Assembly: GCA_010094025.1 (NCBI GenBank)
Contig: ML991837.1
Span: 102,912-166,911 of the forward strand
Direction of reading: 5' to 3'
From: Viridothelium virens
Taxonomy: Eukaryota > Ascomycota > Dothideomycetes > Trypetheliales > Trypetheliaceae
Length of the DNA stretch: 64,000 bases
Shown here in pieces: positions 2,477 through 29,026 of this stretch; the stretch's first letter is position 1; every line of letters starts with the position of its first letter. The translations under genes were made by a program, and so were the position numbers. The notes beneath the pieces were generated by a model. That model saw only the letters and a program-made list of their open reading frames with translations, had not been told where the DNA came from and ran no database searches.

Positions 2477-3493
2477 AATCAAGTGGTATCACAACAGTAA
2501 GGTTTGCGTCGCCAGTGATCGTCTTGGTAGGATGACTGGCTCGACTGAATGACGTCTTCGAGCATCGACATGGGAGAGTACGGAGTGAGTGAAAAGGTTC
2601 GCTTCGTTGGAAATACCTCTGCCATCCTTATATGCCTGGGCGAAACCAACTTTCATCCCTGAATTCAGCTTGCTGCGCTTACGCGACGCAGACCGGTGTT
2701 GTACCAATCTCTGGAGGACACGGTTTCCCCAGTTGAAAAGCTACCCCACGCCTGTGACAAGAACCAACCAGAAAATTGACACTGTACCGACAACCAAATC
2801 TCTTCAAGCATATGCTGTGGTTGCTTAGCAGCCTGGCATATCCTCTGCTTTAGAGGGGCATAAGTATCGCCCTGCGGCTGAGTTTAGAGTACTCTAAGAC
2901 AGCACAGACACAGGAACAGGCTCCCAACACCGGCTGACATGCGGCAGTGGAGTTGATGAAGAAAGATCAACGGCGAGATGTTCTGTCAATTAAATTGACA
3001 AGCCAATGTTAAAATGACAAGAGGCTTGAAGGTACGTCTATTATTGCCCAGGATTTGACCAAGTCTTTTGTCGGGTCGAACCTCGGCATATATCATAGGC
3101 GGCATCGACTCTACCGACTCTGTGACTCTCTCTCCACACGACGCTAAGCCGGCAACCTCAAACGCATCAACTGAGGCTTCCCCCATTAGACCGAGGAACA
3201 TCCGCTTGGCTAACCATTCCCTCGGCCAAGTCTGGGTTCTGGGCCAGGAATGGCACTTAGCCTGGCTACTACGAGCTTTGATCTGGCTCACCATAGCTGC
3301 CGTACTCCGATCAGTTCCGAGTTATAGTTATTTGCTTGTGATCGTTTATTAAGGTTGGTCGTGCCCATGCTGTAAGGGCGATGTCATTACGTCTTGAATC
3401 CTTTTATCCTCTTCTCCTTTCTCACCGTTTCTCCTCATTCTTGCATACATTTCCAATATCCTTCTTTAACGCCAATTGGTTTTTTCTATAATC
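2477..3493. promoter_or_regulatory. Divergent promoter region cupin / isocitrate lyase with three CCTCGG-type elements
   Basis: This 1 kb region separates two divergent genes and has no convincing ORF. It contains CCTCGG at 3081-3086, CCGAGG at 3191-3196 and CCTCGG at 3220-3225, that is 270-415 bp before the isocitrate lyase ATG. CCTCGG is the hexamer bound by the fatty-acid regulators FarA and FarB in Aspergillus, and isocitrate lyase is one of their known targets. Direct control here is inferred from the motif cluster. Confidence 0.6.
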
Positions 3494-5297
3494 ATGGCGT
3501 CCCTCGATGCTGAAGAGCAGGCATACCAAGCGGAGGTAAAGGCCGTGAAGCAGTGGTGGACGGATTCAAGATGGAGATACACACGACGGCCCTTCACTGC
3601 AGAGCAGATTGTAGCCAAGAGAGGAAACTTGAAGATCGAATACCCCAGTAACGCCATGTCTAAGAAACTCTGGAAGATCCTCGAAGGAAGATTTCAGGTA
3701 TAAACAAGGGACCGCATGACGCAATTGCCACTCTACTAAAATTAGAGTAGAACAAAGATACCAGTTTCACATACGGCTGCTTAGATCCGGTCATGGTTAC
3801 CCAAATGGCCAAATACCTCGATACTGTCTATGTTTCAGGTTGGCAGTGCTCATCAACTGCATCATCCACGGACGAACCTGGTCCAGATCTTGCAGATTAT
3901 CCTTACGTATGTTTGAATGTACTTTATCATTGCAAGGAATGCTGATGCAGGTTAAGACTACGGTTCCAAACAAAGTCCAACACCTCTGGTTCGCACAACT
4001 CTTCCACGACCGGAAACAAAGAGAGGAACGTCTCACAACACCGAAGGACCAAAGAGCCAACGTCGCTAACACAGACTACCTCCGACCCATCATCGCTGAT
4101 GCCGATACCGGCCATGGCGGTCTCACCGCCATCATGAAGCTCACCAAGCTATTCGTCGAAAAGGGGGCTGCTGGTATCCACATCGAAGACCAAGCCCCAG
4201 GCACGAAGAAATGCGGACACATGGCGGGGAAAGTCCTCGTCCCCATCAGTGAACACATCAACCGCCTCGTCGCTATTCGTGCCCAAGCCGACATCATGGG
4301 CTCCGACCTGCTCGCCGTCGCCCGGACCGACTCTGAAGCCGCCACCCTCATCACATCCACGATCGATCCACGCGACCACGCCTTCATCCTCGGCAGTACG
4401 AACCCGGCGTTGCAGCCGCTGAATGACCTCATGATTGCTGCTGAGGCGAGTGGTCAGTCCGGGGATGCACTTCAAGCGATTGAGGACCAATGGACGGCGC
4501 AGGCCGGACTGAAGCTCTTCCCTGAGGCGGTTGTCGATACGATCAATGCGGGCGTGCATGTCAATAAGCAGGGGCTGATCAAAGAGTTCTTGGCGCAGAG
4601 TAAGGGCAAGAGTAACGCAGAGGCGCGCGCGATTGCGAAGGGGATTACGGGCGTGGAGATTTTCTTCGATTGGGATGCCCCCAGGACGAGGGAGGGCTAC
4701 TATAGGTACAAGGGCGGCTGCCAGTGCGCCGTCAACCGGGCGGTGGCATATGCACCGTTCTGCGATTTGATCTGGATGGAGAGTAAGCTGCCCGATTTTG
4801 AGCAAGCCAAGGAGTTTGCCGAAGGCGTGCATGCTGTGTGGCCTGAGCAGAAGTATGTGTCTTCCAAGTATATCCCGGCTACTCAGCTCGTGGTCTATGT
4901 GAAAATTTGGATGAGTCACTGACATTCAATCTCTCTTAGACTTGCATACAACCTTTCCCCCTCATTCAACTGGAAAGCTGCCATGAAACCCTCCGACCAG
5001 GAAACCTACATCAAGCGTCTGGCTCAGCTTGGCTTCTGCTGGCAATTCATCACCCTAGCTGGTCTCCACCAGACCGCTCTTATGGCCAATAAGTTCTCCA
5101 AGGCATATGGCACACAGGGTATGCGTGCATATGGCGAGCTGATCCAGGAGCCTGAGATGAACGAGAAGGTTGATGTAGTGACACACCAGAAATGGAGCGG
5201 GGCAAACTATGTGGATAATCTACTCAAAATGGTGACTGGAGGGGTGAGCAGCACGAGTGCCATGGGGAAGGGGGTGACTGAGGATCAATTCAAATGA
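3494..5297 (+). CDS. acuD: Isocitrate lyase (glyoxylate cycle)
   Basis: It cleaves isocitrate to succinate and glyoxylate, the first glyoxylate-bypass step that lets fungi grow on acetate and fatty acids. Exons 3494-3697, 3751-3906, 3957-4852 and 4940-5297 give 537 residues, the usual length for fungal enzymes. The first intron has a TACTAAA branch site. The third exon could instead begin at 3951, adding two residues. The catalytic signature KKCGHMAGK is intact, as are the active-site stretches ADADTGHGG and [11 protein letters not shown]. It matches isocitrate lyase rather than 2-methylisocitrate lyase along its whole length, including the fungal start [19 protein letters not shown] and end WSGANYVDN. 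The C-terminus is EDQFK, so there is no evident PTS1 peroxisomal signal. Three FarA/FarB-type hexamers lie upstream, in keeping with fatty-acid induction. Confidence 0.97.
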
Positions 5298-26603: not shown

Positions 26604-27563
26604 TCACAACTTCGACTGCTTCGATAGAGAAATATCAGACCAATCAAGGCCAAGAAATTGCCACATGTAATGAAACCTGCGCCAAGGAATTAATGACCCC
26701 TTCGTCCGTCCTTCGCACTTCGCACGGACTCACCTATCACTACCAAAGAAGGGTTCTGTCGTTCCTTGGGAATTTCGAACAAAGTACCAAGGAGCCCCAA
26801 AGGCGCCACGCTCAACCAAAAAGTTGGTGTTGTCCTTCAGTTTCTGCTTATATTCTGGCGAGTTCCCCGCAGCAAGAATCGTCTCGACCTCTTGTGGGCT
26901 GAAGTGCCGCGCAAGAGCCTGGGATAATTGGCTCGGCTGACTGATATCCATATGCTGCTTCCATAAACAGATCCACAATTCCACGAAGCCGATCTCGAAT
27001 TTGTCCGATGGATAGTGCTCTTTGATATATGTCATGCAACGTTGCGGCTACGTCAATCGTCAACCTCGCCAAATTAAGTTAACTAATTAGGCCTCCAAGA
27101 AAGGGACGTTACCAAAATGGAGAGAATTGGAAAGAAGGGCGGTGATTTAAGGCCCGTCTGTCCAAAGTATTGCAGGGCCCGAGCCATGTCGTAGTTTCCG
27201 TACACTCGTTTTGCCGGCAAGGTCCATGGCGGTTTATTACCTTGTTTGAGTGAGAACGAAATAGATGTTATTCTTGGATGGCTTGCTTACCGCTGCCTTG
27301 ATTTATACCTCCAAGGAATATTGGATGGAACCTAGAGAGAAGCAAATCGTCATTGACTACCCGTTGTAGTATCAGTCGAATGCCAAATCTCACTCAACTT
27401 CGACACCTTGCTCGGCAAGAGCTTTTCGGTTCTTCAGTAGATAATGAAAAGCCAGGTATGAATAAAAGGACGCTTCATGGCAGTGGTTGGTTAGTTGCTA
27501 CGCAAGGAAGAAGGTGACCCGAGACAGACTGCAGTCAAAGTACGCGTCAATTTTGGCGTTCAT
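26604..27563 (-). CDS. Peroxisomal glutathione S-transferase kappa
   Basis: Kappa GSTs are DsbA-fold enzymes of peroxisomes and mitochondria that act on glutathione with hydroperoxides or haloarenes. Six exons (27563-27530, 27472-27394, 27331-27291, 27240-27113, 27047-26734, 26676-26604) sum to 669 nt, giving 222 residues, the family length. The N-terminal beta strand with catalytic Ser reads AYFDCTSFYSYLAFHYL. It is followed by FHPIFLGGI, NKPPWTLPAK, the helical insert, and the thioredoxin-fold cis-Pro region GAFGAPWYFVRN, then FFGSDRFHYMWQFLG. The last three residues are SKL, a canonical PTS1. The first intron is the least certain (GTCTGT donor, AAG acceptor, CTAAC branch site). The start lies 384 bp from a divergent SDR gene that also carries PTS1. 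Confidence 0.9.
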
Positions 27564-27947
27564 TCCGAACACTTGACACAATCCACGATTTTCTGAGACC
27601 ACTTATGCCTTAATTAGTATGAAGTTCAGTCTCCAAGATATATACTATGGAAGATTACTGGCGCAGTCCCCATCGCAGTTGTAGAGTAGAGTAGCAGCTG
27701 GCTGCGGGCTCAAGCCGAGGCTTCAAGTCTGGCACGCAAGAGCGAACAACAAACTCGGTACTGTATCAGTAATCGCGAATATGACCATGTATCGACTCCG
27801 AGGTCCACGGCAAATGATGTGACTTTCACTTCTCGATGCATAAAATTGCTCACGACTTCCAATGGAATTCAAATACCTCGGGAGAGATGCGTAAAGCTTG
27901 CTTGCAGGTGGGTTGTTTCGTGCAGACCACACCTCGAGGCCTTCGAA
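27564..27947. promoter_or_regulatory. Bidirectional promoter with three CCTCGG/CCGAGG elements
   Basis: This 384-bp spacer drives the kappa GST leftward and the SDR rightward. CCGAGG occurs at 27715-27720 and 27798-27803, and CCTCGG at 27876-27881. This hexamer is the FarA/FarB fatty-acid response element in Aspergillus. With equal base frequencies one would expect about one per 2 kb on both strands together, so three in 384 bp is a cluster. Confidence 0.65.
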
Positions 27948-29026
27948 ATGTCACCAAAGAAAGTTGCGCTCATAGTCGGAGCATCGAGAGGTATTGGACG
28001 GCAAATTGCCATCGACCTCGCGCGTAACGGCTACGCAGGTAAGCTGCCACCTCCTTTCAGCAGTTGGATAGTTGGACTCACCGTAAATCAAGTTGTCGTT
28101 GCTGCTAAAAGCACGTCGGAAGCGTCGAAAGCCAAGCCATTCCCACCCGATCCTAATTCTCCCCAGTCAACAATAAGCACTGTCCAGCGTGAGATTCGTG
28201 AGGCCGGTGGAGAGGCAACAGCTATAGCTGTGGATACAAGAGACTATGAAAGTGTACAACACATGGTTGACGAAGCCGTCAGCATATATGGTGGTCTAGA
28301 CGTCTTAATCTACAACTCGGGCGCAATCTGGTGGGCCTCTATAGAGAACACGCCAATGAGAAGGTTTAAACTGATGCAACGCGTCAATGCTGAGGGACTG
28401 TATGGGACGATCCAAGCAGCTCTCCCGCATTTCAAGAACAATGGATGGAAGGGGAGAATCATAGTTGTTAGCCCACCTATCTACTCGCGGTTTTTTCGAG
28501 GAAAAACAGCGTACGCTATGGGCAAGGTTGGCATGAGTGTCTTGACAAAGGGTCTTGCGATGGACTTTGAAAGAGATGGGAGGGCGCAAATGTCAATTAC
28601 TAGCATTTGGCCCGCTACAGTAAGTTAGAGCGTCATATGATTATGGCATCTCAATTGACGAAGGGCGAGGCCATTCAATCTGGAGCGACTCGGGATCCTG
28701 ATATCACTGCCGAGCTGCGCAAACCCGTGAGAGACCCACCTTTACTGTCAACCATGATTGAAAACTAAGCTCGACAGACTATCTTTTCGGATGCGATTAT
28801 GACCATGCTTGACGCCCCACCAGATCGCGTGAATGGCCATCTTGAGCTTGATGAAGATTTCCTTCGCGAATATTCTCACATCGAAGACTTTTCCAAGTAT
28901 GCCGTGGTTGCAGGGGCCACTCCAAGACGGATCATGCCGGCACGATTTCCAGTTCTGGAGGTTGCGGAACAGGACGATGAAGGCAGACGAGTTGACAGTA
29001 CAAAACGGGCATCTGCAAAGCTTTGA
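27948..29026 (+). CDS. Peroxisomal short-chain dehydrogenase, HSDL2-like
   Basis: An NAD(P)-dependent oxidoreductase of the SDR family, closest in layout to the dehydrogenase part of HSDL2, a peroxisomal protein linked to fatty-acid metabolism in animals. Exons 27948-28038, 28093-28619, 28670-28726 and 28778-29026 give 307 residues. The cofactor loop is GASRGIGRQIA, the structural motif YNSGA, and the catalytic Ser, Tyr and Lys lie in VVSPPIYS and AYAMGK. IWPATAIQSGAT and DAIMTML follow the HSDL2 pattern. The last three residues are AKL, a valid PTS1. No SCP2 domain is present, unlike animal HSDL2. The start MSPKKVALIVG begins directly with the first strand. Upstream in-frame codons exist, but they lie in the promoter. 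Confidence 0.9.

Follow-up and report, generated by a model that had tools for sequence, protein, structure and literature searches.

The closest described system of regulation is the Far/Ctf1 regulon of Aspergillus and Fusarium, which is associated with the hexamer CCTCGG. For A. nidulans, the main text of PMC4117967 lists three sites within 1 kb for each of aoxA, AN1699, antA, and scdA, as well as a site for acuD, which encodes isocitrate lyase. For A. flavus, the positions listed in the main text of PMC5068947 include -334 for pexK and -160 and -361 for acuJ, and a short-chain dehydrogenase is named there as a neighbor of farC. FarA also serves the use of ferulic acid in A. niger, as described in the main text of PMC10512302. 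The word "glutathione" does not occur in the main texts of these three papers, nor does "kappa" in the two of them that were searched for it.

The closest described enzymes are found in animals. Human GSTK1, a kappa-class GST, acts as a disulfide oxidoreductase that reduces disulfides and peroxides with glutathione (PMC10295636). Human HSDL2 is induced in liver by fasting through PPARalpha, according to PMC11141617, and work cited in that paper has it binding NADP(H), sterol derivatives, and fatty acids. The original prediction for the locus described here took each of these enzymes to be peroxisomal in animals. A peroxisomal location is indeed reported, but the statement is too simple, given that HSDL2 was found in peroxisomes and mitochondria in one report (PMC3583843) and in mitochondria in another (PMC11141617), and that GSTK1 has a dual location (PMC10295636). 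With regard to targeting in fungi, the main text of PMC13343957 gives AKL, SKL, and ARL as the only tripeptides that end more than two Pex5-dependent matrix proteins in Histoplasma, and AKI is among the single ends said there to suffice. Neither enzyme was found by a term search in the main text of PMC13343957 or of PMC3566003, and a full-text search of main texts, mostly outside subscription journals, returned no paper on a fungal pair of the kind described below.

The locus was found in a window of 64 kb, by which we mean the whole stretch of DNA analyzed (C67:102912-166911), from a genome of 30.7 Mb in 175 contigs. Splice models and homology confirm the predicted arrangement of a kappa GST that ends in SKL and an HSDL2-like SDR that ends in AKL, placed start to start over 384 bp (27564..27947). 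This region between the two start codons is taken as a shared promoter. The reading that we favor, and consider probable, is that the two genes encode peroxisomal matrix enzymes that are co-expressed from one divergent promoter by a Far/Ctf1-type Zn2Cys6 activator when fatty acids, or other beta-oxidized acids, serve as the carbon source. This reading is based on the gene models, the protein families, the PTS1-type ends, three hexamers in the promoter, and a short-range enrichment of the hexamer before peroxisomal and glyoxylate-cycle genes, from which we infer Far binding, co-induction, and import by PEX5.

The minus-strand gene (26604..27563) is modeled with six exons (27563-27530, 27472-27394, 27331-27291, 27240-27113, 27047-26734, and 26676-26604) and encodes 222 aa. 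The introns of this gene and of its partner are 50-65 bases long in the splice models, which, together with the presence of Zn2Cys6 factors, suggests a filamentous ascomycete. The first GST intron has a weak donor, GTCTGT, so that the residues at this junction are the least certain. A Pfam scan assigned the protein to DSBA (PF01323, 2.7e-21). Its best solved relative is human GSTK1 (1yzx, 3e-21), followed by rat GSTK1 (4e-15) and 3fz5 (2e-10), a bacterial protein named as a possible 2-hydroxychromene-2-carboxylate isomerase. Ser13 aligns with the kappa catalytic serine (Ser16 of human GSTK1) and is invariant in all three aligned rows. This homology identifies the minus-strand protein as a kappa-class GST, for which a glutathione-dependent activity is predicted. 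A genome search located two further kappa-GST places, on contigs C16 and C3, for a total of three genes; the SKL end is unique to the GST in the window, and the other two proteins end in AHL and AML.

The plus-strand gene (27948..29026) is modeled with four exons (27948-28038, 28093-28619, 28670-28726, and 28778-29026) and encodes 307 aa. The protein matches Pfam adh_short (6.8e-31), and its closest solved relatives are 3e03 (8e-39), human HSDL2 (3kvo, 8e-38), and 3sc4 (2e-35), after which the next match drops to 2.8e-18. The best NCBIfam model is NF006133, with a score of 216 bits that falls below the curated cut-off of 250. Asn129, Ser157, Tyr171, and Lys175 are present, and we take these to be the functional residues. 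Homology places the plus-strand protein in the HSDL2/PRK08278 group of SDRs. The likeness to HSDL2 that was originally proposed is thus upheld at the level of the family. It does not extend to the full architecture, as the Pfam scan found no SCP2 domain, which the animal protein has, and the fungal protein stops at 307 aa. For this reason, we refer to it as an HSDL2-type SDR and not as HSDL2.

Both proteins end in an SKL-type tripeptide. The GST tail reads KQSKL in the spliced model, with SKL and the stop codon at 26604..26615 on the minus strand, and the SDR tail reads RASAKL, with AKL and the stop codon at 29015..29026 on the plus strand. The assignment of the C-terminal exons, on which these ends depend, is backed by homology that reaches residue 212 of 222 in the GST and about residue 272 of 307 in the SDR; for the tails beyond, the evidence is the open frame. 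If the two proteins are treated as independent, their composition gives a chance of about 4e-7 that both end in [SA]KL. These ends bear on another explanation, in which separately regulated peroxisomal genes came to lie head to head by chance and at most one of them uses the hexamers. Compact fungal genomes often have short divergent gaps, which speaks for such ordinary neighbors, as does the finding that an HSDL2-type SDR was present in the flank of none of 80 bacterial kappa-GST loci kept from at least 517 confirmed (up to 6 kb a side, shorter at contig ends; mostly Betaproteobacteria by title). We nevertheless judge this explanation unlikely, because both products carry PTS1 ends and the region between them has three sites of a code that is enriched in the peroxisomal promoters of this genome.

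The same sample of bacterial loci was considered with respect to the origin of the pair. A distant SDR match was seen in two of the 80 loci kept of the at least 517 confirmed, and a bacterial origin is unsupported within this sample. A scan of viral contigs with each protein detected no relative of either.

The claim that CCGAGG/CCTCGG occurs three times between the genes was borne out. CCGAGG lies on the plus strand at 27715..27720 (151 bases from the GST start and 227 from the SDR start) and at 27798..27803 (234 and 144 bases, respectively), and on the minus strand, that is, as CCTCGG on the plus strand, at 27876..27881 (312 and 66 bases). With distances taken from the ATG to the distal end of each hexamer, the SDR has its sites at -72, -150, and -233, and the GST at -157, -240, and -318. 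A palindrome, CCTCGAGG, was also observed at 27932-27939, 8 bases before the SDR start; it has CCTCG in common with the Far-type hexamer.

Three sites in 384 bp have a Poisson chance of 4e-4 if the rate before other gene-like starts is used, of 8e-4 with that of the window, and of 1.5e-3 with that of all sequence examined. The hexamer is common, at 0.57 per kb in the sequence examined, and further three-site gaps are therefore expected in 30.7 Mb. Two pattern searches add little: a three-site pattern shaped on the shared promoter occurs once in the genome and not at all in the control, a result of small weight because the pattern is tuned to the site, and CCGAGG-15-CCGAGG is uninformative, with six matches and six for the reversed control. 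It could be argued that the hexamers are there by chance and that oxidative stress or some other signal controls the pair, and the window as a whole lends itself to this argument, as 29 hexamers were found where 28.7 are expected, with no excess. We regard this as a distinctly improbable account. None of TTA[CG]TAA, AGGGG, SYGGRG, or GAA..TTC, which are motifs for stress or other signals, is present in the 384-bp region. Moreover, the 458 of 63,616 sliding 384-bp stretches of the window that contain at least three sites form just two groups, namely the shared promoter and a cluster at 3081-3225, and this only other equally dense cluster is the promoter of an isocitrate lyase gene.

Because the hexamer is at chance level over the window, it was tested on genes that are expected to obey the code. 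The genome was searched with six Pfam families, and nine beta-oxidation or peroxisome promoters, with start codons placed by hand, were taken from five of them: ACOX (two genes), PEX11 (two), carnitine acyltransferase (two), malate synthase (one), and MaoC (two of four places). Two MaoC places were dropped, one on C17 that lies in a 1744-aa frame, presumably a fatty-acid synthase, and an MFE-2-type gene on C16 whose start was not resolved. The places of the sixth family, enoyl-CoA hydratase, stayed outside the test, with only the one on C91 being read, and thiolase was outside the set. The controls were 55 starts from the window and loci L001-L071, each the first ATG in a frame of 200 codons or more, and some of these starts are false. 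Within 1 kb, and with distances measured as above, sites were found at -998, -215, and -152 of ACOX_a, -317 of ACOX_b (so that it has none within 300 bp), -140 of PEX11_a, -154 of PEX11_c, -133 of malate synthase, -120 of MFE2, and -185 of MaoC. One carnitine acyltransferase gene has sites at -432, -197, and -63, and the other, on C6, has none. The distances seen for the GST and the SDR fall inside the range of these test genes.

In seven of nine test promoters, a hexamer lay no more than 300 bp from the ATG, as compared to five of 55 controls (p 3.9e-5); this and the other p values are uncorrected for the number of hexamers, CCTCGG having been named beforehand in the original prediction. The difference is seen at other distances as well, with 7/9 versus 3/55 within 200 bp, 8/9 versus 7/55 within 400 bp, and 8/9 versus 11/55 within 500 bp (p 1.3e-4). 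When one gene was taken per family, four of five had the hexamer (p 0.001), and when the C16 MFE-2-type gene, which has no hexamer near it, was counted as a miss, the result was 7/10 (p 1e-4). The five control starts with a hexamer within 300 bp include a CoA ligase on C16 with a PTS1-type end and a candidate factor on C14, so that the controls, if biased, overstate the background rate.

In the 300-bp contrast with the controls, CCTCGG ranks first among the 1437 hexamers present in the nine promoters. Compared to a general background over the same 300 bp, nine sites were seen where 1.5 are expected, which places it second of 2080 hexamers, with CAGAAA just above. Over 500 and 1000 bp, GAGAGA-type repeats lead the ranking and CCGAGG is fourth and tenth of 2080, respectively. 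ACAGAA was noted as the second-ranked hexamer in the nine 300-bp promoters (6/9 versus 3/55). The relevance of CCTCGG is thereby supported by enrichment in this genome and does not depend on analogy with Aspergillus alone. By the sequence evidence, a Far-type code operates in this genome and the pair fits it: CCTCGG is found in its promoter, in a genome where the hexamer marks peroxisomal genes.

The isocitrate lyase gene mentioned above, a gene of the glyoxylate cycle that is outside the nine and came to light only after they had been chosen, is encoded on the plus strand (window positions 3081-5294, including the promoter sites; ATG at 3494) and matches Pfam ICL on two exons (1.3e-162 and 1.6e-63). 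Its sites are at -413, -303, and -274. With this gene added, the 300-bp test gives 8/10 versus 5/55 (p 1e-5), or 8/11 (p 3e-5) with the C16 gene as a miss. A second divergent pair was found at C91:32786-33316, where an acyl-CoA oxidase ending in AKL and an enoyl-CoA-hydratase-type protein ending in AKI are separated by 531 bp with one hexamer. It shares with the GST/SDR pair the head-to-head enzymes, the PTS1-type ends, and a hexamer in the common upstream region; it differs in that its enzymes are of beta-oxidation type and that it has one site instead of three.

The genome also contains candidates for the regulator. An 864-aa frame with Zn_clus and Fungal_trans domains lies at C14:77458-80049 and is preceded by two sites of the CCTCGG type, at -221 and -201 from the first ATG, which suggests that this candidate factor may be self-regulated. 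A second candidate is located on C41. We take both to be of Far/Ctf1 type from short motifs, which do not establish a firm orthologue, and a cluster on C7 is presumably FacB-like.

As a separate observation, C16:118000-137000 contains a possible peroxisomal beta-oxidation-type cluster, with a thiolase, a CoA ligase (ARL), an MFE-2-type SDR/hydratase (ARI), and a Zn2Cys6 protein. One of the kappa-GST paralogues adjoins the CoA ligase, so that here, too, a kappa GST is associated with beta-oxidation-type enzymes.

Under the same regulator, the pair could instead serve the CoA-dependent side-chain oxidation of aromatic acids (hydroxycinnamates) and not for the use of fatty acids. The solved relative 3fz5 hints at such a role through its name, as 2-hydroxychromene-2-carboxylate isomerase is an enzyme of aromatic degradation. 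So does the C16 paralogue beside its CoA ligase, with the thiolase and MFE-2-type gene nearby. Likewise, FarA and putative CCTCGG sites have been tied to the use of ferulic acid in A. niger (PMC10512302, PMC8140964). However, ten frames neighboring the pair were scanned, six of which match Pfam (Forkhead/FHA, 2OG oxygenase, GH5 cellulase, GT34, WSC, and RRM), and no aromatic-catabolism gene was recognized among them. We therefore give this possibility little credence.

Returning to co-expression of two peroxisomal enzymes on fatty acids, binding of a Far-type activator to the three sites would induce both genes along with those of beta-oxidation and the glyoxylate cycle, and the GST and SDR would enter peroxisomes through PTS1 and PEX5. 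By analogy with its animal relatives, the GST could act as a glutathione-dependent disulfide reductase or peroxidase that maintains matrix thiols in the reduced state during H2O2 production by acyl-CoA oxidases, and the SDR could act as an NAD(P)(H) oxidoreductase of some lipid or carbonyl substrate. The pair may have a detoxification or lipid-handling role, and it probably adds a new pair of targets to a known regulon. A broader proposal, which we find doubtful and put forward tentatively, is that the pair is a conserved fungal redox module of one glutathione-driven and one NAD(P)(H)-driven enzyme, which is produced alongside the machinery for beta-oxidation and the glyoxylate cycle and protects or finishes peroxisomal lipid oxidation; in that case, animal GSTK1 and HSDL2 would belong to a single ancient set induced by fatty acids. 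A fungal pair that ties both enzymes to the use of fatty acids would make their substrates and roles accessible in an organism with easy genetics.

Compared to known systems, the locus resembles the Far/Ctf1 regulon of Aspergillus and Fusarium in the hexamer, in its short-range upstream position, and in the class of targets, which are peroxisomal and glyoxylate-cycle genes. The three sites in its promoter match the number listed for A. nidulans aoxA in the main text of PMC4117967. The GST shares with the kappa class (GSTK1, DsbA-L) the fold family, the catalytic serine, the GAFG.P and FGSDR blocks, and a peroxisomal C-terminus; it is 28-29% identical to the two relatives aligned and has Ser-Phe where the animal proteins have Ser-Pro. 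The SDR shares its core and the SPP and AY...K.GMS blocks with HSDL2 and the bacterial PRK08278-type SDRs, and contains about 10 extra residues near positions 38-56 relative to 3e03 and HSDL2. The fungal SDR has a PTS1-type end, as is predicted for human HSDL2, which ends in ARL (PMC3583843).
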